61,121 nt of DNA from an uncultured cyanobacterium. GTDB lineage: Bacteria; Cyanobacteriota; Cyanobacteriia; Cyanobacteriales; Nostocaceae. The first letter of the stretch is position 1, and each line of letters starts with the position of its first letter. The translations under genes were made by a program, and so were the position numbers. The notes beneath the pieces were generated by a model. That model saw only the letters and a program-made list of their open reading frames with translations. It was not told where the DNA came from and made no database searches. The stretch is from assembly GCA_903848645.1 (NCBI GenBank), contig CAINGU010000012.1, forward strand, positions 1 through 61,121. Direction: 5' to 3'. This document shows positions 22,534 to 42,621 of the stretch, piece after piece.

Positions 22534-24393
22534 TTAATGATTCTTAAGAGAAGGAAAATTCTTACCACCTAGTTCAATTTGTCCAGTTAAGCACCCAGCT
22601 TTGAGCCTAGTTACTAAATACTCTAAATCATTGGCAATAAAATTTGTCCCATGATCTGGTTCTACTAAGCTAATTAAATTGACATCTTTTATTATTTGAT
22701 CACCTAAATCAGCAATTCCTAGAAAATTGAAAACCCCTGATTCATAAGTTCCACAAGGTACAGAAGGATTATTCATCCCCACACAATATTCATTGTCTTG
22801 AAACCAATCAAAATCAGGATAGCCATGAAAGTGAACTATGGGCGCACCATTTTTAATTAATTCTGGTGTATATAAAGCCGCAGCTAAACTAATAGCTAAC
22901 ATGACATAGATATCATAAGATGGTTTGATATCTGCCTTTTTTGCATTACTTCCTAATGGTAATTGCAGATGCAATTTATCTTGTAATCCAATGCGAAGAA
23001 TATCATTATCAATATTTAGATCGGTTTTATTCGCACCAGAACGAGAACTAACTAGCCAAATATCAGGTATTTGCTTAAATTGATTTTCGCCATTTATATC
23101 TAGTTTGATATAACGTCTACCTTGTTCATTTTGCCGAAGTTCATAACTACTAAATCCGACTACAGGTAATAAATTTTTCCATTCATCAATAGTAATTTCC
23201 GGTTTACCGACATAATGGGGAGGTTCAGCATAAGCCACAAAACCATAAGATACTCCTGTTCTGCCATTAACAATGACATCCACAATATCTCTATGGGATT
23301 TTCTTTTAATAACTTCGTCTAATTTAAACCCAGCGGGAAATAAACCTGTAGATGCTAATTCTTGCCCTAGTTTTACTAATTTATCCGCATAGTTTGATAG
23401 ATGAGGATTATATTCTCCTAGTTCAAAACGATTAATTAATAGTGGAGTAATCGGGACAAATACTTTAGGAACAAGTGATTTTAAGGCAAAATCCTCAATT
23501 TCATCGGGAGCAAATTTAGAATCAGAAAGATTCATATTCAAAATCGAAAATTTTTCATTAGATATACCAATGACAATTTCCGAGAAAGTTTTAACTAGTG
23601 TATTTATGCCAATGCGAATTTTTTCTGTATAGGGTGTGAGCGGGCTAACAAATTCATTGTCTATATCCGTGAGAATTACTACTTGTGTGTTTGTAGGATC
23701 TTCAACATATTTAGCCGCATGATCTTCAGCCCAACTACTCAATTTGGCAATTTGGATAACGGACATTTGTTGTTTTTCTTTCAGCCATGAATAAGATAAC
23801 TTATACCAAGCTTCAGCCACAAATATTCCTAATTTTCTTAACCATGAATTTGGTCTTTCTACATCTATAACAGCATCAATATCTGCTCTAACTCCCTGCA
23901 TTTTCAAGGATTTATGCCAGTTAATAATGGGAATTTTAATGGTATGTTTTAATTCTGTTGTGGCTTCTTTCCAGGGAATTACTTTCACACCATGCTTTTG
24001 AAGACAGAATATTAATTTTTGCCGAAATCTAATAATAACTGGATTATGATAATTATCAGGTAAAGGTCTAAAAGTAACTTTCAAGTTTTCCGCCATGAAT
24101 TTAGGGTTAATAATTGGGGGTTGATATCCTGTGGGTGATTCCCCAGAAAAGCCACCAATTAATTTACCAATAGTCTGTAAACTAATGCCCTGAATTAAAG
24201 GTTCATGAGCATAGTTATCAGTAACATTCATTTCCTGGATTAGTGCTAAAATATCTGCTTTATGTGTAGATATTTCTAATTGTATTTCTGGAGTAATTAC
24301 CCCTTTGGGAGAACGAATATTAAGTTTGCTATTTTCTGCCCAAAATAGTACACCTTGTTGAGTGAGTTTTGCTAAAATTTCTGCTGCGCTCAT
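22534..24393 (-). CDS. Unknown protein with N-terminal TubC-like docking domain (lipid cluster)
   Basis: 619 aa. Residues 1-55 (SAAEILAKLTQQGVLFWAEN, IQLEISTHKADILALIQEMN) match the TubC N-terminal docking fold that joins NRPS/PKS subunits. The rest (about 70-619) is soluble and I do not recognise it. Notable blocks are VVILTDIDNEFVSPLTPYTE, a possible metal-binding DxD-like site, APIVHFHGYPDFDWFQDNEY, rich in H and D, and PSVPCGTYESGVFNFLGI. It ends the minus-strand operon 140 bp after the ACP gene, across a long hairpin. The docking domain and position imply it acts on the carrier-bound product, for example as a tailoring or release enzyme; that is inference. Confidence 0.7.
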   Translation of the reverse strand: MSAAEILAKLTQQGVLFWAENSKLNIRSPKGVITPEIQLEISTHKADILALIQEMNVTDNYAHEPLIQGISLQTIGKLIGGFSGESPTGYQPPIINPKFMAENLKVTFRPLPDNYHNPVIIRFRQKLIFCLQKHGVKVIPWKEATTELKHTIKIPIINWHKSLKMQGVRADIDAVIDVERPNSWLRKLGIFVAEAWYKLSYSWLKEKQQMSVIQIAKLSSWAEDHAAKYVEDPTNTQVVILTDIDNEFVSPLTPYTEKIRIGINTLVKTFSEIVIGISNEKFSILNMNLSDSKFAPDEIEDFALKSLVPKVFVPITPLLINRFELGEYNPHLSNYADKLVKLGQELASTGLFPAGFKLDEVIKRKSHRDIVDVIVNGRTGVSYGFVAYAEPPHYVGKPEITIDEWKNLLPVVGFSSYELRQNEQGRRYIKLDINGENQFKQIPDIWLVSSRSGANKTDLNIDNDILRIGLQDKLHLQLPLGSNAKKADIKPSYDIYVMLAISLAAALYTPELIKNGAPIVHFHGYPDFDWFQDNEYCVGMNNPSVPCGTYESGVFNFLGIADLGDQIIKDVNLISLVEPDHGTNFIANDLEYLVTRLKAGCLTGQIELGGKNFPSLKNH

Positions 24394-24434
24394 AATAAAA
24401 TCTCCCGCATTTAAAAATAAGAACTTAGGAAAGA

Positions 24435-24478
24435 GGACACCTGGCTGAATTAGGCTATCCTAATCTAGCGAAGTGTCC
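24435..24478 (-). promoter_or_regulatory. Long intercistronic stem-loop between ACP and the TubC-domain gene
   Basis: GGACAC pairs with GTGTCC, GCT with AGC and ATTAGG with CCTAAT around a CTAT loop, separated by small near-symmetrical internal loops. The structure spans 44 nt. No proper T-run follows on the minus strand, so RNA processing, partial attenuation or mRNA stabilisation is likelier than full termination. Confidence 0.55.
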
Positions 24479-24533
24479 CAATAATCAAGGAGGAAAAACT
24501 GAATTGTCAGTAATTAAACAGAATTTGTAGAGG

Positions 24534-24839
24534 TTATAGCTGGATAATTTCTGACTGGGAATTTTCTAATTCTTCAGATAATCTGAGAGAAAGTTCTTCA
24601 ATGGTAGGATAATACCAAAGATGGATAAGTGATAATTTAAATCCTAAAAACTTTTCGGCTTTACTAGCGATAATTATGGTTTGTGCTGAGTCTAAACCGT
24701 AACTATCTAAAGGTTCACGAATATTGATTTCTTCTGGGTTAACTCCCAGTAAGGAGGAAATTTCGGAAACTAACCAAGCTTGAATTTTAGTGGCGTTATC
24801 TTGGTTATCAGGTAGGGAATTAGAGAGATAATTATTCAT
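24534..24839 (-). CDS. Free-standing acyl carrier protein
   Basis: 101-aa carrier protein. The phosphopantetheine serine lies in the motif PLDSYGLDSAQTIIIASKAE near residue 48, inside a four-helix ACP fold (residues 15-95). It probably holds the mature chain for the condensation enzyme or the TubC-domain protein. Its ATG directly follows the stop of the condensation gene, and its AGGAGG ribosome site lies in the last codons of that gene, so translation is coupled. A phosphopantetheinyl transferase is not encoded in the window. Confidence 0.92.
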   Translation of the reverse strand: MNNYLSNSLPDNQDNATKIQAWLVSEISSLLGVNPEEINIREPLDSYGLDSAQTIIIASKAEKFLGFKLSLIHLWYYPTIEELSLRLSEELENSQSEIIQL

Positions 24840-26168
24840 TTATGTGCCTCCTGGTATTAAGTAATGAGATGAATTTTTGATGATACAATCAAGGCAATTA
24901 TCAACAAGTTTTTCCATGGTTTGCCGATTAATTGAAGGTTGAGAAAAGACAAAGTTTAGGGTCATTTTTTCCTGGAAAGTAGTAGCGTTAACAATAAACA
25001 TTCCTGCATATAAAGCATGAGAACCAGCAAAACTGATTTCTTCTAGTTCTAATTCACCATAAGTGTGGGGAATATTGACTTTACCAACATTAGAAACTGA
25101 GACTGTAGGAGATACTTGATTGGGGAATAACAAAGAAAAATTTATGAGGTGTTTAGCTAGAAATATCATTTGAAAAATCTCTCCTTTGTTAATTTTTTTA
25201 TTTAAGTTATGCTTTATTTTTCGTGCTAATTCCCAAAAAGGCATATTATTTGTGACTCGATAAAATTCCATTAAGGACGTTGCTAGAACTGTCATATTTT
25301 CTTCGCTAATTGTAGGTTTTAAGCGTCTTCTTAAATCAAGATATGATAAACAACTCACTTTAATATTATTTTCATGACTTTGAATAACTGTTCTGCATAC
25401 TGTTAACATTAATGCTGCACATAAGGCACTTTGTACGGTAGTATTTTCTTGTCTGCATTGCTGAATAAAATCTTGTGTTAATGCTTGGTTAAGTTGTCTA
25501 TGAATAATTTCGGAACGTCTTTGAGAAATAGGAATATACTTTTCTACTTTCAATGCTTTTGGCTGATTCCAATATTTTTTAAATGCAATATTTAATAACA
25601 AAGAAATTCTACCTAGCTTTCCTTTAAAACTATTTGTCCAAGCTGGTAATAGTTTTTCAACGGGTGGCAGAGTTTCTAGCGTAGTAACGGATTCAATAGA
25701 CTTACCTTCGGTAATTTTTTGACAATAGGTTAAAATTTCTGAGTGAAGTTGGATGCTTGATAAACCGTCGGTAATAGCATGATGTGTAGTTGTAATCAGA
25801 TAATTGATATTCTGCTGATTTGATATTTTTACAAGTACAACTCTGAGCAGATATTTGCTACTATCAATTATTTGATTCATTTCGGCATTAACGACTGTTT
25901 CCCATTCCTGACTTTCTATAATATTAACAACTTGGAAAGGAAGTTTTCCTGTACCTTTAGACTGATAATAGTAAGAATTTTTGGAGTTAATAATGTGAGA
26001 ATTAAGGGCAGGATGACGATATTGCAAAATATCTAAGGACTGTCTAAGAACTGTTTCTTGGATATTTCCTCGAACACGGCTAATAGTAACTACATTCCAT
26101 GTTTTAGCCTGTTGATTCAGGATTTCCATTGTTTCTTCTAGCTGTCCCAATTTCCTATTTATAGCCAT
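24840..26168 (-). CDS. Condensation-domain acyltransferase (PapA5/WES-like)
   Basis: Stand-alone member of the chloramphenicol-acetyltransferase-like superfamily that joins an acyl thioester to an alcohol or amine. The catalytic HHxxxDG motif is intact in TTHHAITDGLSSIQLHSEIL near residue 133. The N-terminal MAINRKLGQLEETMEILNQQ resembles PapA-type polyketide acyltransferases. The C-terminal latch region is seen in VSVSNVGKVNIPHTYGELEL. The frame is open to a TTG at 26216 that lies in repeat DNA; the ATG at 26168 is preferred (442 aa). In this cluster, which has no thioesterase, it is the best candidate for releasing the product as an ester or amide. Confidence 0.82.
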   Translation of the reverse strand: MAINRKLGQLEETMEILNQQAKTWNVVTISRVRGNIQETVLRQSLDILQYRHPALNSHIINSKNSYYYQSKGTGKLPFQVVNIIESQEWETVVNAEMNQIIDSSKYLLRVVLVKISNQQNINYLITTTHHAITDGLSSIQLHSEILTYCQKITEGKSIESVTTLETLPPVEKLLPAWTNSFKGKLGRISLLLNIAFKKYWNQPKALKVEKYIPISQRRSEIIHRQLNQALTQDFIQQCRQENTTVQSALCAALMLTVCRTVIQSHENNIKVSCLSYLDLRRRLKPTISEENMTVLATSLMEFYRVTNNMPFWELARKIKHNLNKKINKGEIFQMIFLAKHLINFSLLFPNQVSPTVSVSNVGKVNIPHTYGELELEEISFAGSHALYAGMFIVNATTFQEKMTLNFVFSQPSINRQTMEKLVDNCLDCIIKNSSHYLIPGGT

Positions 26169-26190
26169 ATTTATAAACCTTATTGAAAAA

Positions 26191-26368
26191 TTGTAGGTTG
26201 GGTTGAGCGATAGCAAAACCCAACATTATCATTAGACATCTCCAGAAATTAAATATGCGTATTCTAGAACCCTTATAGAGACTTTCCATGAAACGTCTCT
26301 ACACTCTTTTCTGGAGATGTCTATTATCAAGGATTGTGTTGGGTTTCATTCTTCAACCCAACCTACTT
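26191..26368. repeat. Outer inverted repeat GTAGGTTGGGTTGA...AAACCCAACA
   Basis: GTAGGTTGGGTTGAGCGATA at 26191 and the minus-strand sequence from 26368, GTAGGTTGGGTTGAAGAATG, each continue into AAACCCAACA, forming a large inverted repeat. It encloses a smaller MITE-like element (26234-26322). The pfaD-like stop codon and its last few codons lie in the right arm. Confidence 0.7.
26234..26322. repeat. MITE-like element, copy B (AGACATCTCCAGAAA ends)
   Basis: Perfect 15-bp terminal inverted repeats AGACATCTCCAGAAA (26234-26248) and TTTCTGGAGATGTCT (26308-26322) enclose an AT-rich core with GTAGAGA/TCTCTAC-type complementarity. A degraded relative lies at 8307-8394. ATTATCA occurs close to both ends and may be a target duplication. 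Confidence 0.8.
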
Positions 26369-27996
26369 TGTGGATGATATTGGCTAAATTCTTCTGGCAT
26401 TTGTAAGCCTTGAATTTTTAAGTTTTGAATACGATATAAATACGCTGCTCCTGTCATAATTTGATCGGCTACATCAACTACTCGGCGATTATTAATATCT
26501 GCTAAATAAGAACCACGTACCCAATTATTAAAACTTCCCATGGCTGGGCCACACCAGATTTGATAATCAATTTCTCGACCTTTTTCTCCACTATTAGACC
26601 AGCGGGAAGATAATCCTAAATACCAGCGAAATATTAAGGCCATTTTTAATTTAGGATTGTTGGCTGCTTTGCTTAATTTTTCTGGGTTATGTTGAGATAA
26701 ATAAGTAGATGTTTCTTGCCAAATTTCGGCAATTGTTTTTCGCAAAATTTGTTTTTCTAACTTTTCTATTTCGTCTGGGGGAATTTCGGCAAAGGAATTA
26801 TAATTTTTATATAATTCCCCTAGTTTTTGAGCGCGGAGGGGGAAAAGAGTTCCTCTTTTAAGAACTTGTAATTTTACACCCATTTCAAACATATCTGCTG
26901 CGGGTGCCATCATGACATCAGTCATTTCTGCTTCAGCTAGGAGCTTTTTTGTATATTCAGAAGTCCCAGCTTCAATGCAGGATTGATTAATAGAACCGGT
27001 GACAATATAAGCCGCACCCATCATTAAAGCTGCTAGTGCTGATTGAGGTGTGGAAATTCCCCCAGCTACTCCAATTCTTACAGGTTGTTCATAACAATAT
27101 TTGCGTTGAATTTCGTCTCTTAATTCTAAGATAGAAGGTAATAAACAAACCAAGGGACGATTATCTGTATGGCCTCCTGAATCTGCTTCTACGGTAATAT
27201 CATCAGCCATAGGCAGTTTCGCAGCCAGATTAGCTTGTAATTCGGTAATTAATCCTTGTTCAACTAATTGATTCAGAATTTTTGTGGGTGCGGGTTGGAG
27301 GAATTTAGTAGCGACTTCTCGACGGGAAACTTTGGCGATGATTTTATTTTTTATTTCGATTTCATTGGCTGAATTTAAACTTAGTCCCGCAGCCCGATAG
27401 TAGACTATATTATCACTTAAATCCAAAAATGCAGAGGCTTCAATTATTCTGACTTGATGCTGTAAATACAAATCAATTAAACGACGTTCGATAGCAGGTT
27501 CACTAGGACTATGAAGTAAGTTAAAAGCATAGGATTTGTTATGTAAAGCCTGTTTAATTTTGTGAATTGCTGTTTCTACACGGGCAGGAGATAAACCCCC
27601 AGCACCAAAGGAGCTTAAAATGTTGGCTTTTCCCAGGGCAATTACCATTTCTTCAGATGCAATACCTTGAGCCATTGCCCCAGTCATATAGGCATATTTT
27701 ACGCCATAAAATTCTAGAAAAGTTGGATCACCTAATTGATGAAATCCGAGAGTAGGAACATTTAAAAGCATTTCTAATTGCTGAGTTTTACCATTAGCAC
27801 TATATGATAAACTGCCTTCGTTGCTAATACCAATTTGTTCTTCTTTCTTCAGAATATAACAAGGATAATTTAAATTCATCAGTTTATTTTTAATATTTTC
27901 TGCATCAAAAGACACAGTATTTAAATCGCCTTGCCATCCTTGATAATTGTTATTCATTGAAGGAGAAAACTTGAGTTGTTGATGTTGTTTCAACAT
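26353..27996 (-). CDS. PfaD-type trans-acting enoyl reductase
   Basis: FMN-dependent TIM-barrel enoyl reductase of the PfaD family, which reduces enoyl-ACP intermediates made by PUFA-type and heterocyst-glycolipid synthases. Landmarks are GILSSFGAGGLSP-type ANILSSFGAGGLSPARVETA, NLLHSPSEPAIERRLIDLYL, and the flavin-binding RIGVAGGISTPQSALAALMM, MGAAYIVTGSINQSCIEAGT. At 547 aa it is full length. The synthase itself shows no ER domain, so this protein supplies the missing step. Its last codons and stop lie in an interspersed repeat. Start ATG at 27996; MNNNYQGWQGD at residue 14 is an alternative. Confidence 0.92.
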   Translation of the reverse strand: MLKQHQQLKFSPSMNNNYQGWQGDLNTVSFDAENIKNKLMNLNYPCYILKKEEQIGISNEGSLSYSANGKTQQLEMLLNVPTLGFHQLGDPTFLEFYGVKYAYMTGAMAQGIASEEMVIALGKANILSSFGAGGLSPARVETAIHKIKQALHNKSYAFNLLHSPSEPAIERRLIDLYLQHQVRIIEASAFLDLSDNIVYYRAAGLSLNSANEIEIKNKIIAKVSRREVATKFLQPAPTKILNQLVEQGLITELQANLAAKLPMADDITVEADSGGHTDNRPLVCLLPSILELRDEIQRKYCYEQPVRIGVAGGISTPQSALAALMMGAAYIVTGSINQSCIEAGTSEYTKKLLAEAEMTDVMMAPAADMFEMGVKLQVLKRGTLFPLRAQKLGELYKNYNSFAEIPPDEIEKLEKQILRKTIAEIWQETSTYLSQHNPEKLSKAANNPKLKMALIFRWYLGLSSRWSNSGEKGREIDYQIWCGPAMGSFNNWVRGSYLADINNRRVVDVADQIMTGAAYLYRIQNLKIQGLQMPEEFSQYHPQSRLG

Positions 27997-28104
27997 AATT
28001 TTTGAAGTAAATACTCTATTAAACTGGTTATATATTCAACTTGAAAATTTTGGACAGGCAAGATGCCTATCCCACAATAGATTTACAAAATTCACTCTGT
28101 ATTT

Positions 28105-30795
28105 TTACTTTTCTTTTCTGGCTTGTATCACCATTTTTTTGTACAAATCTAATTGCTGCTGTAAAAATAGACTAAGTTGTTGAAGTGATGTTTGCCGGGA
28201 CTGTAATAAAAAGCCGTGTGCTTTAGCCAGACGAGCATTATTATCATTTAAACTTTGATAATTAGGGATAGATTTAATTTTGCGTTCATAATTCAATAAA
28301 GAATTATCTTGAAAAAATGACTGATTTTTACAAGCAATATCTTGGTCAATTTTGATATTTGGTAAAGAATATAAAGGTGATAAATCCAACTCGACTCGAT
28401 GACTAAATAGTTTGGCTAAGGCTTTGATAATAGAGGTATGATCATCTACACCTCTTCTATTCAAAGATACGGTCAGATGTTCTTGATTTTTGAGGGTTTC
28501 ACTAATCCAACGGCTACAGTTACCACCAACACCGACTTCAATAAAGATTCTGATATTATCATTATAGACATGATTAACTAACCGAGGAAAATCAAGTTGG
28601 TGACAAAGGGCTGTAGCAATATTTTTGCCTATTAAATGACTATCAATCTTAATAGGTGAGTAGTCAGCGGCAGAATAGAAAATAGTGGCTGAATCTGCTT
28701 GAGTTGGCAAGGTATTAACTTTCACTAATTCATCATATTCAGAGTGCATGGGTTCACAATGAATTACATGATTAATTGATGTGGGAAAAGCGTCACATTT
28801 TAAGATATCAATGACTCTTTGACAAGCTTGGGTTTCACCAGCAATAACTACTTCTTCGGGTGTATTAATTAAAGGCATATAAACCCGTTGTTCATTTTTT
28901 AGAACTTCTCTAACTTGGGAAGGTGAACATATTAAAATGTAGTTACTCCAAAATTCTGCGCTTTTACCTTCATGAATTACAGGTAATCCCCAATGCTGCC
29001 GAACTGCATTTTTAGGACCAGATAGCCGGGTTTTAAATAGAGGAGATGAATTTAAATAATCACTGGTACTTTTAAAGCTAGTCCAAATACCTTGGGCTAA
29101 CATCATGCTAGTTTCACCCAGGCTATAGCCAAAAGCATAAGGTGATTGAATCTGGAAATAGTTTTTCAGAATTGCTGTCATTAATCCGGCGATACCAACC
29201 TCTGATTCCAGCATGGAAACTGGATCATCTATTAATGTTTGTTCTATGCTTTCTAGTTGTCTTCTTGATAGTTTATTGATGCTACGAGGATAGAGAATTT
29301 TTTCAATGTTGGCGACTCGATTATAAACACTTTTAATGACGACATCATTATGTAGTTGAGGAAAAAGACGGAAGATATTTCTTCCTAGTCCGATATAAGA
29401 AGTAAAAGAACCAGGATAAACAAAGGCAACATGACCTTTTTTTCCTTGGGGATTAATGGTAAAATAACTACCTAGGGGAGTTTGCCAGTCTTTACCAGTA
29501 GCAAAAGCAATATTTACTCCCTGAATTGCCCTTTCAATTTCTCTTTTTAATTCTTCTGGATTTCGTGAGAGAATTGCTAAAGCATAGGTTGATTTTTGAT
29601 ATTGCTGATATTTTTGGAAATAATCACTAGCAAGTTGCGACAGGGAAGAAACATCTGTGATATTTTGTTGAAGTGCGGTAATTTGTGTTAGTAAAGAAGC
29701 ACGATCATCAGCGGCAATAGCAAATAAATAATAAGGCATTTCTGCTAAATATTTACTACTGCGTTCTATTTGGCTGATTTCTTCTGACAAAATTAAATGT
29801 CCATAAATATGATCTTCTTCCATCAAATTTACCGCAGCAATTCTTTTAGTTGCACCGGGTTCTAAAAACCAAGGTTTTGATTCTACGGCTACATAAAAGG
29901 GACTTCCGCGCCAAATTTCTGGCTGTTGAGGATTGGACCATTGGGGAACACCGGGAATATAACGATGATATAGACAAAGTGCGGTTTTGATGAGGCTAAA
30001 TATACCAGCGGTGGCTTGTGTGTTGCCAATATTTGCTTTGACGCTACCTAATCCACAACTCAGATTTCCTGTCCCTGTCTGATAAGCTGATATTAAACCT
30101 TGAATTTCCGCTGTATCTGCGTTGGGAATCCCACTGGCCACAACTTCTAAATAACCAATATCTGCGGCTTTAATATCTGCTATTTGCAACGCCTCCTGAC
30201 AAGCTTGGGTAACAGTTGCTGGGTGATTTGGAGAATGTTTTACCACACTCAAACCATCAATGACTGCATAGATGCAATGATTTTGTTGCTGGGCTGTTTC
30301 ATGCAGTTGTAATACTACGGCGGCTGCACCTGCTGTTTTAATTACATTGTGAGCTTTTTCGTCATAACTGAAAGTATATGTATCTGCATTAATTTCTATC
30401 GGGTAATTTTTGTCTATCCCGACAATTAAAACAGCTTCCACTTGCTGGGTAGTTAATAATTTTTGACTGACATACAAAGCTGATAAAAGCGATTTTTCTT
30501 CGGCAAAAACTGCTAATTCAGCAGAAATATAATTAGCTAACTTGGCGGAATTTTCTGTGGGAGAAATGATGATTAATGCTATTTTTGTTTCTGGTTTAAT
30601 TTTAGCATCTTCTAGAGCAGAATTGATCACCTCTGGACTTAATGGAGTTTGCTGATAATCTTCAGGTGTGGCTGAATTTTGTTTGCTTTCATAAATCAGA
30701 CGTTCAAATTTATTTAATGTTGGTGAATTACTAACAAAACAATCCATACCGACAATTGCTAACTTTTGATTTTGGGCAATTGATTTCATTATCAT
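28105..30795 (-). CDS. Chain-length-factor-like (inactive KS) plus acyltransferase protein
   Basis: 896 aa with two parts. Residues 1-345 follow the ketosynthase fold (KLAIVGMDCFVSN through GSVKANIGNTQATAGIFSLI), but the catalytic residues are gone. The active cysteine region reads EEKSLLSALYVSQ, HGTGT is replaced by VVASGIPNAD, and the last histidine is N in IGNTQ. This is the pattern of a chain-length factor. Residues about 455-790 are an acyltransferase with the nucleophile motif AFGYSLGETSMMLAQG near residue 557. The C-terminal 80 residues are helical and polar. The pair of one active KS (in the upstream gene) and one dead KS recalls PUFA and HglE/HglC systems. Compared with PfaC/OrfB proteins, no DH or ER domain is fused. 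Confidence 0.85.
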   Translation of the reverse strand: MIMKSIAQNQKLAIVGMDCFVSNSPTLNKFERLIYESKQNSATPEDYQQTPLSPEVINSALEDAKIKPETKIALIIISPTENSAKLANYISAELAVFAEEKSLLSALYVSQKLLTTQQVEAVLIVGIDKNYPIEINADTYTFSYDEKAHNVIKTAGAAAVVLQLHETAQQQNHCIYAVIDGLSVVKHSPNHPATVTQACQEALQIADIKAADIGYLEVVASGIPNADTAEIQGLISAYQTGTGNLSCGLGSVKANIGNTQATAGIFSLIKTALCLYHRYIPGVPQWSNPQQPEIWRGSPFYVAVESKPWFLEPGATKRIAAVNLMEEDHIYGHLILSEEISQIERSSKYLAEMPYYLFAIAADDRASLLTQITALQQNITDVSSLSQLASDYFQKYQQYQKSTYALAILSRNPEELKREIERAIQGVNIAFATGKDWQTPLGSYFTINPQGKKGHVAFVYPGSFTSYIGLGRNIFRLFPQLHNDVVIKSVYNRVANIEKILYPRSINKLSRRQLESIEQTLIDDPVSMLESEVGIAGLMTAILKNYFQIQSPYAFGYSLGETSMMLAQGIWTSFKSTSDYLNSSPLFKTRLSGPKNAVRQHWGLPVIHEGKSAEFWSNYILICSPSQVREVLKNEQRVYMPLINTPEEVVIAGETQACQRVIDILKCDAFPTSINHVIHCEPMHSEYDELVKVNTLPTQADSATIFYSAADYSPIKIDSHLIGKNIATALCHQLDFPRLVNHVYNDNIRIFIEVGVGGNCSRWISETLKNQEHLTVSLNRRGVDDHTSIIKALAKLFSHRVELDLSPLYSLPNIKIDQDIACKNQSFFQDNSLLNYERKIKSIPNYQSLNDNNARLAKAHGFLLQSRQTSLQQLSLFLQQQLDLYKKMVIQARKEK

Positions 30796-30827
30796 TCTCC
30801 ATTTTTCAGAAACTAACTACAGAGGAG

Positions 30828-30860
30828 TAGGGGTAATTCATGAATTACCCCTAGGGGTAA
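30828..30860. promoter_or_regulatory. Overlapping perfect palindromes between the synthase and CLF-AT genes
   Basis: Positions 30828-30853 form a perfect 26-bp palindrome (half-site TAGGGGTAATTCA). It overlaps a second perfect palindrome, TTACCCCTAGGGGTAA, at 30845-30860, so GGGGTAA occurs three times in alternating orientation. It lies in the 71-bp gap between two operon genes. It may fold in mRNA or bind a dimeric regulator. Confidence 0.6.
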
Positions 30861-30866
30861 AAACAT

Positions 30867-36800: not shown

Positions 36801-37700
36801 AGAAACCGCTGGGGTTTTACTGAAGCACATATAGGCGAAAATTGAGTTATCAGTATCCACACCGCCAGTTATCATCATGTCGGCGCGATGTTCCACTAGT
36901 TCGCTAATAGCCATCCTTAATGCACCTAATGAACTTGCACAAGCTGCATCCACTACGCAATTCATTCCGCCCAAATCCAGACGGTTAGCGATACGTCCAG
37001 AAATTACATTTGCTAACATTCCGGGGAAGGCGTTTTCTTCCCATTGCACATATCCACTTTTGAGTTTTTCAATGATTTTTTGGCTATCTTCCTCTGATAA
37101 ACCACTATTTTTGAGAACTTTTTTCCAAAGTGGATCTTGCAACCTTGCACCTAAAGGAACGGCTAATTGTCTACCAATTGCTACTCCTAATACTACCCCA
37201 GTGCGTTCGTGATTAAATTGGCGAGATGTACCATAACCAGCATCTTCTATGGCCTCTTTTGCCACTACTAAACCAAGTAGTTGAGAAATATCTGTCACCT
37301 CCAAAATATTCGGAGGTAAGCCAAATTCCATGGGATTAAAATCAATATCTGGTAAAAAACCACCCCGTTTACAATAGGTTTTATCTGGTGCTTTGGGATC
37401 TGGATCATAATAATCATCTATATGCCAACGGGAAGCAGGAACATCGGTAATACAATCTACTTTCTGAATAATATTTTCCCAGTATTCCTGTAAATTCTTC
37501 GCCTGGGGAAAAATAGAAGCCATCCCAATAATTGCTACATTAGTTGTTCGCAACTTGGCATTAATTTCATTTTTTATCTTTGTGGTATCAGGCATATTTT
37601 TTTTCACCGTTATCATCTTGAGTACAGACTTTTCACAGTTATTAATTTCAGCTTGCAACTGTGCGAAAGCAGCTTCAAATTGGGAAGCAGCCATGATCAT
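30867..37700 (-). CDS. Type I polyketide/PUFA-type synthase (HglE/PfaA-like), KS-AT-ACP-ACP-KR-DH
   Basis: 2277-aa iterative synthase. The KS domain (about 50-510) keeps the catalytic cysteine in VVDAACASSLGALRMA near residue 252, EAHGTGTMVGDPTE, and KSQIGHTKAAAGAASLI. The AT (about 625-950) has FVAGHSFGELTALWVAGV near residue 725. A linker with 16-residue tandem repeats and HEQYLKYQQEYTQHYFQLLQ helices leads to two ACPs, each with ADLGIDSIKRVEILGGLLE (near 1283 and 1407). The KR (about 1700-1960) has FLVSGGAKGITAQ and the SDY triad in VGQSDYAIAN. A C-terminal hotdog domain has LQDHVIAGRPVLPA near 2015, the PS-DH type. Two ACPs and a separate PfaD resemble heterocyst-glycolipid and PUFA synthases. 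First gene of the minus-strand operon. hetM, hetN and hetI are absent, so this is not the canonical hgl island. Confidence 0.93.
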   Translation of the reverse strand: MIMAASQFEAAFAQLQAEINNCEKSVLKMITVKKNMPDTTKIKNEINAKLRTTNVAIIGMASIFPQAKNLQEYWENIIQKVDCITDVPASRWHIDDYYDPDPKAPDKTYCKRGGFLPDIDFNPMEFGLPPNILEVTDISQLLGLVVAKEAIEDAGYGTSRQFNHERTGVVLGVAIGRQLAVPLGARLQDPLWKKVLKNSGLSEEDSQKIIEKLKSGYVQWEENAFPGMLANVISGRIANRLDLGGMNCVVDAACASSLGALRMAISELVEHRADMMITGGVDTDNSIFAYMCFSKTPAVSPGDKVKPFDADADGMMLGEGVGMLVLKRLEDAQRDGDRIYAVIKGMGSSSDGKYKSIYAPRAEGQINSLVRAYTDAGISPASVGLIEAHGTGTMVGDPTEFTSITTVFGENNPKKQHIALGTVKSQIGHTKAAAGAASLIKAALALHHKVLPPTINVSKPHPKLNIENSPFYLNTETRPWVSHPTQPRRAGVSAFGFGGTNYHVVLEEYEHEHHHPYRLHHTPESLLLYAPTPSELLSRCQQIQQQLQAEGKERHYQQLVTESQTGKIPVNYARVGFVANNLAQAGELLQIVIAGLKQKPEVESWEHPQGIYYRQTGIDTTGKVVALFSGQGSQYLEMGRELVMNFPCLRQTYTHMDSLLCEDGLQPLSTVVFPKPVFDQAQKQIQLATLQKTEYAQPAIGVFSAGLYKILQQAGFKPDFVAGHSFGELTALWVAGVLSEEDYLFLVKARGQAMATPANADFDAGGMLAVKGDIQQITEVIKNFPQVAVANRNSQHQVVLAGKKGEISQVQDVLKKQGFTTFLLGVSAAFHTPLVSHAQKPFAQAIEKVNFNEAEIPVYTNVTGGCYPQEPHVIQKILKEQLLNQVLFQQEIENIYAAGGYCFVEFGPKNVLTNLVKEILSDKPHIAIAVNANHTKNSDKTLREAIVQLQVVGLSLQNLDPYQVATKIPEVPAKKVLNIRLNSTNITEKTQKIFAKALENGHHVEVVSPQTTINNKPPTSFNGNHQLQGDDKPPTSFNGNHQLKDDDKPPTSFNGNHQLQGNDKPPTSFNGKLEQVEIQPQNHEKVIYSLENFITEFSQQQRDIIHVHEQSLQNQTEYTKTFSQLMQQQYSLLGNSELTEHQSQTQQLAISNSERNMMRFHDHQGDTLRIHEQYLKYQQEYTQHYFQLLQKHFHLLTSENKVINYVNPPNSASFVVQEPIIFSQVSEELKNDERTINLVPKIPINIDKATLSQTLLNVVSEKTGYPVEMLELSMDMEADLGIDSIKRVEILGGLLEIYPELPKPNPEELGQLRTLEQIAEYMQTLVPEILNQQVEVSTAIITTEVLVEVPQQELITSTPELEEQKVEVEIPENLSDILLTVVSEKTGYPVEMLEMSMDMEADLGIDSIKRVEILGGLLELYPDLPKPSPEEIGELRTLGEIATYMQQQAQGITKFSNEEIVEITTTISQANIRRNIAKLQQLPTPDSLEFSLPENYIALITDDGSPTTEKLAESLTAKGWKTVVVSFPGINSNVNEGMNRVVLTDWNEDSLQQQLKQIADNYGAVAAFIHLHPAATPSDIDKSILRHVFLIAKYLKEPLNEAAKFGRSCFINVARLDGEFGLGETHNFSAIAGGLFGLSKSINQEWENVFCRSLDLNPAIDPETSVKNILAEIHDPNLLIQEVGYSSKGRVNLIADFSPLPTTNCPRRITKDQVFLVSGGAKGITAQCVIKIAQEYKCKFILLGRSSREPEPVWAENCENEAELKQRILENFQAQGEKATPIMVQKKYQAISSQREIQNTLKAIEQAGGEVEYLNVDITDTVLLESKLADVIERFGAITGIIHGAGNLADKRIEKKSIQDFENVYAAKVKGLENLLRCIPASKLQYLVLFSSVVGFYGNVGQSDYAIANEILNKSAHLIKHNYPNCHVIAINWGPWESGMVSAELKKAFAERGIEVIPVETGTQILVNELTTANQDTVQLVIGSPLIYVPSTLSHELKTYCIKRQLTLAENPFLQDHVIAGRPVLPATCGLLWMTNACEQLYPGFTAFSSPNFKVLKGIVFDETSPDAYILEIQELAKHENEEIEFAAKISSQTPDGKIRYHFSTNLILKREIPTSPNYGILNFNQDENFLKTNQELYQVNASSLFHGVTFQGVKSVLNTSPSKITIECYLPEPTAQQQGQFPVQTFNPYIADVQIHSLWIWTQHFHQVGCLPSEIKNFEQFAKVPFGETFYVTCEVQLKTESSVVTDVITYNPQGQIYNRMIGAKGTILPNQIAKY
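34485..34680 (-). repeat. 48-bp tandem repeat in the synthase linker
   Basis: Four occurrences of KPPTSFNG are separated by NHQLQGDD-type spacers at a 16-residue (48-bp) period, measured from matching positions 34498 and 34546. The copies differ by only a few bases. The repeat lies between the AT domain and the first ACP, where flexible linkers occur, so copy number can probably vary without breaking a fold. Confidence 0.9.
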
Positions 37701-38598
37701 ATTTCACTCTTTTGATCGGGCAACATTAAGGTTGACAGAAGGTTTTTTAATTCAGTTAAGTTCAGAAAATAAAACTTTTATTTAAGCATTTATACCTAAA
37801 TAAAATTTTGGATATATCCAACTAAAGTAGGTGAATATTGATTTCTATCCTTAACAGTATTGATTTTTTTTGAACATTAATTATTGATGAATACTGTGGC
37901 AGTTAAACATGAAATAGTCTGATTAATCCTCTAGACTATAAATTACATTTTTGCCTACATTAATTTTAGTTTAGTGACAACTCTATTGCAACTCATAAGC
38001 AATTTACGTGCAACTTTATAAAAGTCTTGCAAATGTAAAATTGATAGAGTCGTCTGAGAAATATCTTTGCTTATCCAATACACTAATTATTATCTAAGTT
38101 TTAGCCACTTTGACCAAAGTTGCATATAGATTGCATATAATTAGTTCCAACTTCTTGAAAACTTTATTTTGCAATAGCTAACAATAAAAAATCCTTTTAA
38201 TAGAAATAAAATTTTTCATAGGTCATTATTATTTATTAGTTTCTAATCCTAAATATTTAATCATTGCATCTATCCCCAGAAAGATTTTTTGGTATTTGTG
38301 AAATTAGTCACAATAAAATATGTCTAAGGAATTAAAAAAATATTTTTTATCAAATTAATTCTAAAATTTGAGATAATGAAAAGTTGGCAATATTCTATCT
38401 ATCGAAGAAGTTAATAATTGAAGACTTGCAATTTTTACCAATTCAATATATTGGCATAAATCAGGTTTTATGAAACAATCTGTTGCATATAGGTTGAAAT
38501 TTCTAAAAAATCAGTTTATTCTATATTATTAAATCAGGACAATTTAGACTGTAACTTTCAAACAGTCTTTTACCATAAATTAAGGAAATTTAACCTTA
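37701..38598. other. Divergent AT-rich promoter region of the lipid cluster
   Basis: About 0.9 kb without a supported gene, between the synthase operon (leftward) and the small regulator-like gene (rightward). It is very AT-rich and contains several TTGCATATA elements (see separate entry). No NtcA-type GTA-N8-TAC site was found by eye. Long untranslated leaders of this kind are typical of developmentally regulated cyanobacterial genes. Confidence 0.5.
38118..38140. promoter_or_regulatory. Direct repeat of TTGCATATA (possible operator)
   Basis: AGTTGCATATAGATTGCATATAAT contains two TTGCATATA units spaced about one helical turn apart (11-12 bp). A third copy, TGTTGCATATAGGTTG, lies at 38481-38496, about 120 bp upstream of the small regulator-like gene. 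The spacing suits binding of a protein to one face of the DNA. No known consensus is matched. Confidence 0.4.
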
Positions 38599-38985
38599 TT
38601 GCATCATCTGGCTTCTGCAATATTGGAATTACAAAAACTACAAGGAATTGCTGGCATGAGACTATCTGAATTAGATCCACTCATCCCGCTGAATGAGTTA
38701 CGAGAAGACCTTCTTAAATTACCAAAAGGTTATTCATTTTATGAAGATGAGTTAGTAGATTTTCTATCACGGAGAAGATGGCCTGAAAGCAATCGCCGAA
38801 TTGATAGAACAACATTCTGGCGGTGGCGCAATGACAACGCTATTGAACATCAAAAAATCTTCAGTCGCTTGGATCTTCTCAAACTTTGTCAAATTTGTGA
38901 TCATTATCGAGTAGACGGAACACGCAACGAATATTTGGCAATTATGCGGAAGAAAAAAGAGAAAGAGGTAGTGCTAAATAAATAA
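38599..38985 (+). CDS. Small HTH-like protein of unknown family, next to the lipid cluster
   Basis: 128 aa, no signal peptide or membrane segment, strongly helical and basic at the C-terminus (MRKKKEKEVVLNK). The segment NRRIDRTTFWRWRNDNAIE looks like the recognition helix of a helix-turn-helix protein, preceded by YEDELVDFLSRRRWPES. I do not recognise a family. The frame opens at TTG 38599; an ATG at 38656 with AAGGA nine bases upstream would give 109 aa (MRLSELDPLIPLNELREDLL) and may be the true start. It lies between the divergent synthase operon and devBCA, so a regulatory role for one or both is plausible but inferred. Confidence 0.65.
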   Translation: MHHLASAILELQKLQGIAGMRLSELDPLIPLNELREDLLKLPKGYSFYEDELVDFLSRRRWPESNRRIDRTTFWRWRNDNAIEHQKIFSRLDLLKLCQICDHYRVDGTRNEYLAIMRKKKEKEVVLNK

Positions 38986-39056
38986 AATTTTGATTCTGGT
39001 AATCGGTAATAGTCAGCAACTAATTACCAATTACCTATCAAAATTTTAGTATTTTA

Positions 39057-39170
39057 TATAGGAATCATATTTGATTTTTGAAATGTAGCTAGGGTAGGCA
39101 TTAAACACGATTATAATTTCCTAATGCCTACACTAATTAATGGTTTTCAGAAATCATTTAGGATTGCTAT
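39057..39170. repeat. MITE-like palindromic element, copy B (related to 12194-12313)
   Basis: TATAGGAATCATATTTGATT on the left and, read on the minus strand from the right end, ATAGCAATCCTAAATGATTT are inverted repeats. Inside, TGAAATGTAGCTAGGGTAGG matches the minus-strand half of the element at 12194. It lies between the small regulator-like gene and devB. Confidence 0.7.
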
Positions 39171-39363
39171 TAAATTTTCATTTAATCAACTTAAATAAAT
39201 AATCAAATCTTCAAAACCAACAAAAGTTTTGATTCATCGTATTTTACTGGATATTATATCAAACATAAGGTTATCAAGAGATACTATCAAATGTAATGGC
39301 TTTTGGAGTCTCTTATTTAGAGTCGAAAATCCTGTCATATTTCCTAATTTAAAAAATAAAATC

Positions 39364-40566
39364 ATGGTACACAAAGAAAAGCACTCATTAACAAAACCTA
39401 TGAGTTTGTGGCCGATAATGTTAGCGAGTTCTGGGGTTATAGCTACTAGTGTAATATCTATCTATAGCCTTTCATATTTTCAGAAAACTTCTCAATCAAC
39501 CCCAACCATATCTTCTATTCCCCCCAGTTCAGCACCTACAATTACCGCTGTTGCTGCTTTAGGACGTTTAGAACCCCAAGGAGAAGTCATTCGTCTCTCC
39601 GCACCCAATTCGCAAACAGGAATCAGAGTTAATCAACTCCTAGTTAAAAAAGGAGACAAAATCCGTCAAGGACAAGTAGTAGCAACTCTTGACAATTACA
39701 CCCCAAATCTTGCAGCCTTAGAAAAAGCAAAACGACAAGTAGAGGTTAGTCTAGCTAATCTGCAACAAGTAGAAGCTGGAGCAAAAGGAGGTGATATTTC
39801 TGCTCAAAAAGCCACAATTGCCCGGTTAGAAGCTGATTTACGAGGATCAATTTTTACTCAAAAAGCCACAATTGCCCGCTTAGAAGCTGAATTAAAAAAT
39901 TCAGAAACCGAAAATCAACGATATCAAAAATTATATCAAGATGGTGCTATTTCTGCTTCTGATGCAGATACTAAAAGATTACGCAGGGATACGGTTCAAG
40001 AACAACTTAATGAAGCTAATGCTAATCTCAAAAGAACTGTAGAAACTTTACAGAAACAGTTAAACGAATCTCAAGCTAGACTCAATAGTATTGCAGAAAT
40101 TCGCCCCACAGATGTGCAACTAGCTCAAGCAAATGTAAAAAGTGCTATAGCATCTGTTCAACAAGCTCAAGCAGAGCTAAATTTAAGTTCTATCCATTCA
40201 CCTATTGATGGTCAAGTCCTAAAAATTAATACTTGGCCAGGAGAAATAATTGGCAATAAAGGCATATTAGAATTAGGGCAAACCCAACAAATGTATGTAG
40301 TTGCAGAAGTCTATGAAACTGATATTAAAAAAGTTCGTTTGGGTCAATCAGCAACGATCACAAGTGAAGCTTTTACCGGAAAATTAAAGGGAACTGTCAC
40401 AGATATTGGTTTACAAATTGGTAAACAAAATATCTTTAATACTAATCCCGGTTCAGATACAGATAACAAAATAGTTGATGTGAAAATTCGCATTGATAAA
40501 TCAGCGGATAATCAACGAGTTTCAAGCTTAACTAATTTACAGGTACAGGTACTTATTCAGATATAA
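39364..40566 (+). CDS. devB: DevB-like membrane fusion protein (lipid-cluster exporter)
   Basis: HlyD-family periplasmic adaptor, about 400 aa from the ATG at 39364; the frame extends to a TTG at 39229 without family features. A membrane anchor lies near residues 15-36 (MSLWPIMLASSGVIATSVIS region). The first lipoyl half (VAALGRLEPQGEVIRLSA, NQLLVKKGDKIRQGQVVATL) precedes a long coiled coil with a short internal duplication (QKATIARLEADLRG, QKATIARLEAELKN). The second lipoyl half IHSPIDGQVLKINTWPGEII and the barrel follow. It leads devB-devC-devA, the exporter type that moves heterocyst glycolipids with the outer-membrane channel HgdD. Proximity to the synthase suggests it exports that product. 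Confidence 0.9.
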   Translation: MVHKEKHSLTKPMSLWPIMLASSGVIATSVISIYSLSYFQKTSQSTPTISSIPPSSAPTITAVAALGRLEPQGEVIRLSAPNSQTGIRVNQLLVKKGDKIRQGQVVATLDNYTPNLAALEKAKRQVEVSLANLQQVEAGAKGGDISAQKATIARLEADLRGSIFTQKATIARLEAELKNSETENQRYQKLYQDGAISASDADTKRLRRDTVQEQLNEANANLKRTVETLQKQLNESQARLNSIAEIRPTDVQLAQANVKSAIASVQQAQAELNLSSIHSPIDGQVLKINTWPGEIIGNKGILELGQTQQMYVVAEVYETDIKKVRLGQSATITSEAFTGKLKGTVTDIGLQIGKQNIFNTNPGSDTDNKIVDVKIRIDKSADNQRVSSLTNLQVQVLIQI

Positions 40567-40725
40567 CTATGATTTGGATGATTAATTAATGAGAAAAATT
40601 ACAGTTCATATTTTTTGCACAATTATCAAAGCCTAAACTATGATTTTTGTGATTAATTTGATTTGTCTGATTAATAAGGTGTATTTAAAAAATCAAATAG
40701 TTATATAGGGAATAGGAGGAAAAAT
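40567..40725. repeat. Dispersed AACTATGATTT repeats between devB and devC
   Basis: AACTATGATTTGGATGATTA near 40567 and AAACTATGATTTTTGTGATT near 40635 belong to the repeat type also seen at 43545-43616 and at the right end of the window. The last bases hold an excellent ribosome site (AGGAGG at 40714-40719) for devC. Confidence 0.6.
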
Positions 40726-41901
40726 ATGATTTTAAATATACCTTTAGCTTGGCTACAATTGGTAAAACAAAAAGTGCGCTTTTTTGTAGCCTTAGCTGGT
40801 ATTGCTTTTATTTCTGTTTTGATGTTTATGCAAATTGGGTTTCAAGATGCTCTTTATGCTAGTGCTACTCAAGTGCATAAACATCTCCGAGGTGATTTGT
40901 TTTTAATTAGCTCCCAATATAAATCTTTGACTTCTACTCAAAGCTTTCCTCGCAGTCGTTTATATCAAATATTGGGTTTTAATGGTATAGAATCAGTTGA
41001 ACCTTTATATGTCCAATTTGCTAAACTCAAAAATCCCATCAATGGACGCAAATATCCTATTTATGTTCTGGGATTTGAGCCAGTAAAATCCATCTTTAAA
41101 TTACCTGAAGTTGAACAAGATTTTAAATTACTAAGAATCCCCGACCAAGTATTTTTTGATCGGGCTGCACGTCCAGAATTTGGGCCAATTGCTGAATATT
41201 TTCAAAAAAATCAACCTATAACTATGGAAATATTTAGTTATCTGGGTACTATTGGTTATAAAGTTAAAGTTAGTGGTTTATTTACTCTTGGGCCTTCCTT
41301 TGGTGTGGATGGTAATTTAATTGTTAGTTCTTCTACTTTTCTCAAAATCTTTCCAGAACGCAGAGCCAATGAACTAGATATAGGCTCAATTCATCTAGAG
41401 CCTAATGTTAATCCACAAAAGATTTTAGCAACTTTATCTGCTAGTTTACCCAAAGATGTCACAGTGATGACACGCCAAGAATTTATTGATTTTGAAAAAA
41501 GCTATTGGACATTAAGAACACCGATTGGATTTGTATTTAATTTGATGGTAATGATGGGTTTTGTAGTAGGTGTAATTGTTGTTTATCAAATTCTGTATAG
41601 TAATATATCTACTCATTTTGTCCAATTTGCTACACTCAAAGCCATGGGATTTAGAAATAAATATCTTTTGAATGTCGTGTTTCAGCAAGCTGTAATTTTA
41701 GCTGTCTTGGGTTATATTCCCGGCTTTGCTATCGCGCTAGGACTATATGATGTTGCGAAAGATGCAACTAAATTACCAATTGTCATGGATTCAAGTAAGG
41801 GATTATTGGTATTTACTTCTGTGATTTTTATGTGTTTAACTTCTGGTTTCTTTTCTACCAATAAACTACGTAAAGTAGATCCAGCAGAAATATTTAATTA
41901 A
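40726..41901 (+). CDS. devC: DevC-like ABC transporter permease
   Basis: Inner-membrane permease with MacB/FtsX topology. There is one N-terminal helix (RFFVALAGIAFISVLMFMQI), a periplasmic domain of about 200 residues, and three helices near the end: FNLMVMMGFVVGVIVVYQIL, NVVFQQAVILAVLGYIPGFA and the VFTSVIFMCLTSGFFSTNKL region. The ending RKVDPAEIFN is typical of DevC. 391 aa, full length. AGGAGG 6 bases before the ATG gives strong translation. devA follows after 3 bases, so the two are coupled. Confidence 0.93.
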   Translation: MILNIPLAWLQLVKQKVRFFVALAGIAFISVLMFMQIGFQDALYASATQVHKHLRGDLFLISSQYKSLTSTQSFPRSRLYQILGFNGIESVEPLYVQFAKLKNPINGRKYPIYVLGFEPVKSIFKLPEVEQDFKLLRIPDQVFFDRAARPEFGPIAEYFQKNQPITMEIFSYLGTIGYKVKVSGLFTLGPSFGVDGNLIVSSSTFLKIFPERRANELDIGSIHLEPNVNPQKILATLSASLPKDVTVMTRQEFIDFEKSYWTLRTPIGFVFNLMVMMGFVVGVIVVYQILYSNISTHFVQFATLKAMGFRNKYLLNVVFQQAVILAVLGYIPGFAIALGLYDVAKDATKLPIVMDSSKGLLVFTSVIFMCLTSGFFSTNKLRKVDPAEIFN

Positions 41902-41904
41902 CTG

Positions 41905-42621
41905 ATGATGCAATATTTACCTTCTGCTAATATTTTGGAAATCACAAATCTTAATCATTACTTTGGACATAGTAAATTACGGACTCAAACTTTGTTTGAT
42001 ATTAATTTAACTATCAAACCTGGAGAAATTGTGATTATGACTGGACCTTCTGGTTCAGGAAAAACTACTTTATTAACATTAATTGGTGGTTTACGTTCTG
42101 TACAAGAAGGTAGTTTAAAATTTAATGGACAAGAATTATTAGGTGCTAGTAATGAAGAATTAGTCCAAGTTCGCCGCCAAATTGGCTATATTTTTCAAGC
42201 TCATAATTTACTAGATTTCTTAACAGCTAGACAAAATGTGCAAATGTCTTTGGAATTACAACGCAATATTTCTCAATGGGAATCTTATATCCAATCAGAA
42301 ACAATGCTCAGTGCTGTGAAATTGGCAGATAGAATTAATTATTATCCCTCTGATCTTTCCGGGGGACAAAAGCAACGAGTAGCGATCGCTCGCGCTTTGG
42401 TGAGTCATCCTAAGTTAGTATTAGCTGATGAACCTACCGCTGCTTTAGATAGTAAATCAGGAAGAGATGTGGTTAATTTAATGCAGCAATTAGCAAAAGA
42501 ACAAGATTGCACCATTTTAATAGTTACTCACGATAACCGAATTTTAGATATTGCTGACAGAATCATTAATATGGAAGATGGTTATTTAATACAACAACCG
42601 CAGGGCAGAATTAAAAATTAA
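41905..42621 (+). CDS. devA: DevA-like ABC transporter ATPase
   Basis: Cytoplasmic ATPase of the DevBCA exporter. Walker A is GPSGSGKTTLLTLIGG near residue 48, the Q-loop is IGYIFQAHNLLDFLTA, the signature DLSGGQKQRVAIARALVSHP, Walker B LVLADEPTAALDSKSG, and the switch histidine is in ILIVTHDNR. 238 aa, normal for the MacB/LolD-like group. It starts 3 bases after devC. It is the only DevA in this window, so it might also serve the devB-devC pair at 15194-17630. Confidence 0.95.
   Translation: MMQYLPSANILEITNLNHYFGHSKLRTQTLFDINLTIKPGEIVIMTGPSGSGKTTLLTLIGGLRSVQEGSLKFNGQELLGASNEELVQVRRQIGYIFQAHNLLDFLTARQNVQMSLELQRNISQWESYIQSETMLSAVKLADRINYYPSDLSGGQKQRVAIARALVSHPKLVLADEPTAALDSKSGRDVVNLMQQLAKEQDCTILIVTHDNRILDIADRIINMEDGYLIQQPQGRIKN

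Follow-up and report, generated by a model that had tools for sequence, protein, structure and literature searches.

A conserved aldolase-like protein with a docking domain may finish the lipid of a cyanobacterial hgl-like island in a manner not yet described

Introduction

The closest described systems to the locus analyzed here are the ‘hgl-like’ islands. In the main text of PMC11804610 (PNAS 2025), this name stands for smaller islands that carry hgdCB and hglE, F, G, C and A in five open reading frames (ORFs). According to that text, they accompany a full hgl island, an hgl-like island being the sole one in Raphidiopsis brookii D9; their product is not known, and a service to heterocysts or akinetes is argued against. 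A second relevant system is docking by TubC-type domains, which, in the available text of PMC9113145, bind the short C-terminal tail of an upstream carrier protein; in the one solved docking complex, the contact is made by the final five tail residues only. Here we analyze positions 22534..42621 of a 61,121-nucleotide stretch (the window; contig CAINGU010000012.1 of assembly GCA_903848645.1) from an uncultured Nostocaceae cyanobacterium with a genome of 5.4 Mb in 119 contigs. The cluster is an hgl-like island of the polyunsaturated fatty acid (PUFA) synthase type. The core has been published before; the new element is a pair of genes encoding a free acyl carrier protein (ACP) and a protein with a TubC-type docking domain, here called X. 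We propose that X may finish the lipid of this island in a manner not yet described.

Results

Protein X and its predicted fold

X is encoded at 22534..24393 on the minus strand, in a single copy in the host genome, and consists of a TubC_N docking domain (residues 5-54, about 24232-24381), a middle part, and a C-terminal domain with a predicted class II aldolase-like fold (residues 318-619, 22537-23442). The domains of the cluster were called from Pfam and NCBIfam scans and from motifs. TubC_N was found at the N-terminus of all 33 aligned homologues, and the Pfam scan gave no match for the rest of X.

We modelled X with AlphaFold2 as a whole (pLDDT 80.4, pTM 0.81) and as residues 318-619 alone (pLDDT 82.4, pTM 0.84), and searched both models with Foldseek. 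The nine top PDB matches of the whole protein were RhaD, AraD, and HMPDC decarboxylase, with docking domains next. The domain alone gave RhaD, FucA, YgbL, pyruvic oxime dioxygenase (POD), and HMPDC decarboxylase as its 19 top PDB matches, MJ0236 at ranks 20-21, and noise beyond (best E 1.5e-4, probability 1.00; eight matches at E <= 0.001). A viral fold library yielded a single match below E 0.001, a class II aldolase. The two models, which were built from the same sequences, agree on the fold family, of which we take CloR and NovR to be iron-dependent members.

The predicted metal ligands are H521, H523, and H581. H521-x-H523 and H581-G582 show no variation in the X alignment. All 100 distinct full-length X proteins contain HFHG and PDHG[TA]N, and PSYD and PCGTYESG occur in 100 and 99, respectively, of 100 distinct homologues. 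In cyanobacterial PF00596 members, H90, H92, and H154-G155 are invariant with a spacing like that of X, which also resembles the spacing of His119, His121, and His183, described as the iron ligands of POD in the available text of PMC11841055. From the models and these motifs, X would be a metal enzyme whose fold resembles that of class II aldolases.

Several results weigh against this assignment. The TM values of the domain search were modest (0.45/0.49) and the rmsd was large (about 9 A). The catalytic Glu of FucA had no clear counterpart in X, Asp494 being just a candidate. At the sequence level, no relation between X and class II aldolases emerged from the Pfam scan, from hhalign run with default, global, local, or unmasked settings, or from hmmsearch with reversed and shuffled sequences as controls, and a sequence search of the PDB returned only docking domains below E 0.01. 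An assignment of X to the class II aldolases by sequence was therefore rejected, and the claim is restricted to a resemblance in fold. The lack of a sequence-level relation to active enzymes would also suit a catalytically dead or otherwise folded X that merely serves as a docking scaffold. The near-complete conservation of the four motifs and the agreement of the whole-protein and domain models on one fold family argue against such a scaffold, which we consider improbable.

Distribution of X

At E <= 1e-10, X matched 37 of 291 genomes of the same order, its own included; 35 of the matches were nearly full-length, one comprised the docking domain only (G139; G and L numbers are our handles for genomes and loci), and one was cut at a contig end (G259). 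At E <= 1e-30, X was found in 31 of 386 genomes of the phylum, every one in its own order. When 84,980 species genomes were scanned with a pattern, 207 stretches resulted, and the 120 relatives and 80 loci returned were all cyanobacterial by title. Merging of identical loci left 102 distinct X loci, all cyanobacterial, of which 75 were of the PfaD type, 16 were of the FAAL/PKS type (a FAAL and/or CylC-like gene plus other polyketide synthase (PKS) genes), and 11 were other or cut short.

In the whole-genome search, devBCA lay near 29 of 30 PfaD-type X loci (own included), more than chance would give. This agrees with the single pathway proposed in an earlier note on this DNA: the synthase, the ACP-X pair, and devBCA travel together. 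Three points weigh against this reading. For the exception, G227, devBCA was not in the fetched stretch (30 kb upstream, 3 kb downstream). Most loci had been found through X, which biases the co-occurrence counts. Since the earlier loci came from the X search, we performed a counter-search of the 291 genomes with the protein that joins a chain-length factor (CLF)-like ketosynthase (KS) to an acyltransferase (AT), CLF-AT, at E <= 1e-60. It matched 50 genomes; X was present in a PfaD-type locus in 30 and missing from such a locus in 20, which is the third point. Of the 20 hgl-like CLF-AT loci in the own family (at least 59% identity), 19 had X. The one without it, G210, belongs to the hgl-like clade, and there an ACP and a thioester reductase (TR) replace the PapA5-like enzyme, ACP, and X.

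It could be that X is just a neighbour of the pathway; G210 and this genome's own ordinary hgl island, both of which lack X, might suggest so. We regard this as extremely unlikely in view of the 19 of 20 loci, the conserved ACP tail (see below), and the correlation of 0.90 between X and PfaD in their pairwise distances on the trees across 66 loci, a value inflated by shared species history.

Two further proteins were noticed in these neighbourhoods. A CylC-like protein (40-52% identity) was encoded near PfaD both without X (L194, L195, L199, L200) and with X (L133, L135, L141, L180). A 432-aa protein occurred in 16 PfaD-type loci (e.g. L137, L148, L161, G274), mostly in Nostoc records; it was not assigned to a family and is labelled FerritinL here.

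The ACP tail

The free ACP identified by the Pfam scan (24534..24839, minus strand) ends in SEIIQL (24537-24554), the proposed binder of the X docking domain. A partner ACP with a SEIFEI-like tail was present in 102 of 102 X loci. It lay within 900 nt of X in 85 loci, where all 62 distinct tails fitted the pattern [FIL][EQH][ILVFM](L)-end, and 0.9-1.8 kb upstream of X in 14 loci, where all five distinct tails fitted it. A PapA5-like gene (13 loci) or another gene (L145) stood between the distant ACP and X. The ACP pattern did not pick up the ACPs of L185, L188, and L189; read by eye, their tails were SEVFEL, SEMFEL, and SETFEI. None of the 14 other distinct tails of C-terminal ACPs, which all came from FAAL/PKS-type loci, fitted. 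A point against this result is that the tail pattern was drawn up after the tails had been inspected. Judged from these sequences, the ACP tail would dock X, and since the pattern holds in both PfaD-type and FAAL/PKS-type clusters, ACP-X looks like a transferable pair.

The ending of the pathway

The acyltransferase of the PapA5/condensation type (24840..26216, minus strand) shows PapA_C and condensation domain matches and the motif HHAITDG, and is lineage-specific. We took a census of possible enders in the 75 PfaD-type loci, using score thresholds and a range that began 12.5 kb upstream of X and ended 4.5 kb downstream. A PapA5-like gene alone was found in 56 loci, TR alone in seven, both in one, and neither in 11. 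Two of the last group (L135 and L185) stop less than 200 nt past X, which leaves nine. In some loci, those of the Fischerella type, the PapA5-like gene was downstream of X. A PapA5-like gene and X occur together in, for example, Sphaerospermopsis kisseleviana NIES-73 (L120), and the island is also carried by Chlorogloeopsis fritschii PCC 6912 (L134) and Fischerella sp. PCC 9431 (L133). The HHxxxDG motif was present in 66 of 71 distinct PapA5-like homologous stretches and missing in five. The earlier proposal that condensation onto an alcohol or amine finishes the lipid is thus possible in this lineage, where HHxxxDG is present, but is not general: a PapA5-like gene was found in 57 of the 75 loci and not detected in 18, and the PapA5-like enzyme was rejected as the constant ender. 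By contrast, ACP-X was constant across these loci.

In the ordinary hgl island, PfaD is followed by ACP-TR, and in G210 by ACP and TR, with no X. The smallest gene set, found in G216 and G276, comprises the synthase, CLF-AT, PfaD, ACP, X, and devBCA. From PfaD to devBCA, the run has no further ORF of 80 aa or longer, apart from a 112-aa one that lies between DevA and DevC in G276; the G216 contig stops inside the synthase. From these gene orders, X would occupy the slot that ACP-TR fills in the ordinary island. The co-existence of X and TR in eight loci is a point against this assignment, and because of it X is not simply a replacement of TR.

These loci also bear on the possibility that the PapA5-like enzyme releases the chain in this lineage and that X is a tailoring enzyme acting on the ACP-bound chain, for example by C-C cleavage or iron-dependent oxidation. 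The presence of a PapA5-like gene with HHxxxDG in most PfaD-type loci, the decarboxylase and dioxygenase in the fold family of X, and the loci in which X stands alongside TR are all in keeping with it. On the other side are the nine loci in which neither PapA5 nor TR was detected at these thresholds, and the G216/G276 run, where X is the sole candidate, with the reservation that one of the two contigs is incomplete. We consider a tailoring role quite possible, although short of probable.

In 14 loci, either FAAL/PKS-type or unclassified, X was followed by a glycosyltransferase (GT) of the monogalactosyldiacylglycerol (MGDG)-synthase kind; in PfaD-type loci, GT2 and GT4 enzymes followed X in eight and five cases, respectively (one representative of each scanned). 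This points to glycolipids as the putative products of the GT-bearing loci. No glycosyltransferase was seen beside the window cluster. According to the text of PMC11804610, Gloeocapsopsis crepidinum LEGE 06123 produces a C24 1,3-diol as well as glycosides of it, and a connection with its island is offered there as speculation. This island (L175; G017 in the tree) contains TR and X. Since it falls in the same CLF-AT clade as the window cluster, a C24, 3-hydroxylated chain would be a plausible guess for the product of the latter.

Relation to the ordinary hgl island

The window core (DevB, DevC, a fused HglE-F-G synthase, the HglC-like CLF-AT, and PfaD) matches the gene list of the hgl-like island in the text of PMC11804610, if HglA in that list is read, as we do, as PfaD. 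The text consulted gave nothing that ties an aldolase-like protein with a TubC docking domain to such islands, supplements being outside the search. The novelty claimed for the cluster in the earlier note is therefore reduced to its ACP-X ending, since the core is in print.

Contig C87 of the same genome carries a separate, ordinary heterocyst-glycolipid island that lacks X. Its ORFs encode HglE-, HglG-, and HglC-like proteins, an extra KS, PfaD, an ACP-thioester reductase, a short-chain dehydrogenase/reductase (SDR), DevB, DevC, and an epimerase-like protein; these names were assigned from resemblance to genes of the window and from position, and HglD, HetN, and HglT are presumably the names of genes near this island. 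The Pfam and NCBIfam scans revealed no ACP-thioester reductase, extra KS (HglD), or SDR (HetN) at 22534-42621; thioesterases were covered solely by these general scans of the window proteins, with no search aimed at them. The usual hgl partners are thus absent from the locus, as noted earlier, but not from the genome. Because a separate ordinary island is present, the window cluster most likely serves a second product, in line with the earlier view that its lipid differs from the ordinary heterocyst glycolipid.

In the CLF-AT tree, the sampling of which is biased to X-bearing tips, the hgl-like clade has 56 tips (support 0.999), 55 of them with X, and the window cluster lies outside the ordinary hgl clade. 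The sister of the hgl-like clade has 21 tips, which comprise all 17 ordinary islands sampled and four X-bearing loci (L155, L159, L160, L163). On deeper branches, X occurs in G253, G118, G227, G019, G276, L185, L188, and G216, next to other islands without X. In the four loci of the sister clade, X adjoins CLF-AT genes of the ordinary hgl clade; this runs counter to a strict tie between X and hgl-like islands and, from the sequences, suggests that endings may have been exchanged between islands.

The homology of the synthase and transporter to the hgl set could mean that the product is an ordinary heterocyst or akinete glycolipid. We find this very unlikely, as the genome has a separate hgl island of a different clade, the cluster is found outside the heterocystous groups, and the text of PMC11804610 argues likewise. 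PfaD-type islands with X were also present in records of Gloeocapsopsis, Myxosarcina, Symploca, and Acaryochloris, the last three of which are non-heterocystous genera. Gloeocapsopsis is non-heterocystous as well (PMC11804610, main text). The role in heterocysts or akinetes that the earlier note had envisaged is not supported, in view of these records, the arguments in that text, and the regulatory scan given below.

Gene layout

The gene run and its domains were as described earlier, with all reported ORFs of 22534..42621 in place. The genes of the minus-strand run (22534-37700) are transcribed in the order synthase, CLF-like KS + AT, PfaD, PapA5-type enzyme, ACP, X; the HTH-like gene, devB, devC, and devA face them on the plus strand.

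The iterative synthase (30867..37700, minus strand) has the domain order KS-AT-ACP-ACP-ketoreductase (KR)-dehydratase (DH), as seen from domains and motifs: the KS Cys, GHSFG (AT), GIDSI twice (two ACPs), YAIAN, and HVIAGRPVLP. It scored 2187 bits with the PfaA model (cut-off 1010); some relatives encode it in two or three ORFs. Its linker before the ACPs contains a 48-bp repeat in 3.5 copies (window 34489-34655), giving 16-residue repeats. The PfaB/HglC-like protein at 28105..30795 (minus strand; 157.2 bits with the PfaB family, cut-off 144.3) lacks the active Cys in its KS half. It had earlier been called a dead KS plus AT; CLF-AT is the better name. The PfaD-type enoyl reductase (26353..27996, minus strand) scored 659.3 bits against a cut-off of 449.25.

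Export and regulation

DevB, a membrane-fusion protein (39229..40566), the DevC permease (40726..41901), and the DevA ATPase (41905..42621) are encoded on the plus strand, all over their NCBIfam cut-offs; the true start of DevB is probably downstream of the annotated TTG. A TolC/OEP gene (52345..54345, minus strand), the only one of the genome over the family cut-offs, lies about 10 kb beyond devBCA, and its product is a possible outer-membrane partner of DevBCA. Four more DevA-like genes (68-72% identity) are present elsewhere in the genome, and TolC may serve several pumps.

No NtcA consensus was found in the divergent region between the two gene runs (37701..38598); the whole window had 12 matches against 9.9 expected. 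The promoter and terminator scan performed no better than with shuffled sequence. The small conserved HTH-like gene (38599..38985, plus strand) does face the synthase run, as noted earlier, but its product had no Pfam or NCBIfam match, and homologues with at least 69% identity are present in 54 of the 99 own-family genomes, some of them without X. The gene was rejected as a cluster-specific regulator, since it occurs in genomes that lack X.

Discussion

The gene content, the motifs and their conservation, the docking domain of X, and the matching ACP tail led us to the following proposal. The KS-AT-ACP2-KR-DH synthase, CLF-AT, and PfaD would build a very long acyl chain, which would be passed to the free ACP. 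The tail of this ACP would recruit X through its docking domain, and X, acting with a metal ion, would perform the terminal step at the slot otherwise held by TR. In this lineage, the PapA5-like enzyme might then esterify a hydroxyl of the lipid or move the chain onto an alcohol, and DevBCA, together with the TolC of the genome, would export the product. We consider it fairly probable that the locus is an hgl-like island of this kind, with an ACP-docked metal enzyme at the terminal step, esterification by the PapA5-like enzyme, and export by DevBCA, and that it is not specific to heterocysts. A narrower suggestion is made tentatively, and we think it rather unlikely: that X is a new chain terminator, an ACP-recruited metal enzyme of the aldolase fold that frees the chain through formation or cleavage of a C-C bond instead of hydrolysis, reduction, or condensation, and that ACP-X is a portable ending used by two types of assembly line.

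The published hgl-like island has no product assigned to it, and a conserved end-of-line enzyme that has a defined ACP partner and alternates with TR or a PapA5-like enzyme yields direct predictions. Islands bearing a reductase should give alcohols or diols and those bearing PapA5 should give esters, and loss of X or of six residues of the ACP should block or alter the product. If the chemistry of X is indeed aldolase-like, it would be a new ending for assembly-line biosynthesis.

Comparison with known systems

The window cluster shares hgdC, hgdB, and hglE, F, G, C, and A in five ORFs with the hgl-like island, and like it is a second island; ACP-X and the PapA5-like gene are not mentioned in the text of PMC11804610, its supplement and figures being outside the comparison. 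With the ordinary hgl island it has a homologous synthase, PfaD, DevB, and DevC in common, whereas the ordinary island of this genome, a member of the sister clade, contains ACP-TR, an extra KS, an SDR, and an epimerase-like gene instead of X. Compared with the PUFA synthase PfaA-D, the cluster shares the PfaA-like KS-AT-ACP-KR and PfaD, but its synthase has two ACPs and one active KS, and the domain scans and motifs revealed CLF-AT and one DH only, and no PfaC-type KS-CLF with two dehydratase/isomerase (DH/I) domains. The PapA5-like enzyme has PapA_C, the condensation domain, and HHxxxDG in common with mycobacterial PapA5, but reaches only 73.9 bits against the NCBIfam cut-off of 396.

X shares its predicted fold and the HxH...HG pattern with the class II aldolase superfamily (RhaD, FucA, POD), but has extra N-terminal parts and no profile-level sequence relation to PF00596. 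Its aldolase-like domain is of a kind unlisted among the recruited domains in the available text of PMC9113145, which are condensation (C), epimerization (E), cyclization (Cy), thioesterase (TE), methyltransferase (MT), thioester reductase, and halogenase domains. The mode of recruitment would nevertheless be familiar: in the SLiM-betaHD docking of the enacyloxin release C domain (PMC9113145), as in ACP-X, a tailed carrier protein is matched with an enzyme that has an N-terminal TubC-type domain.

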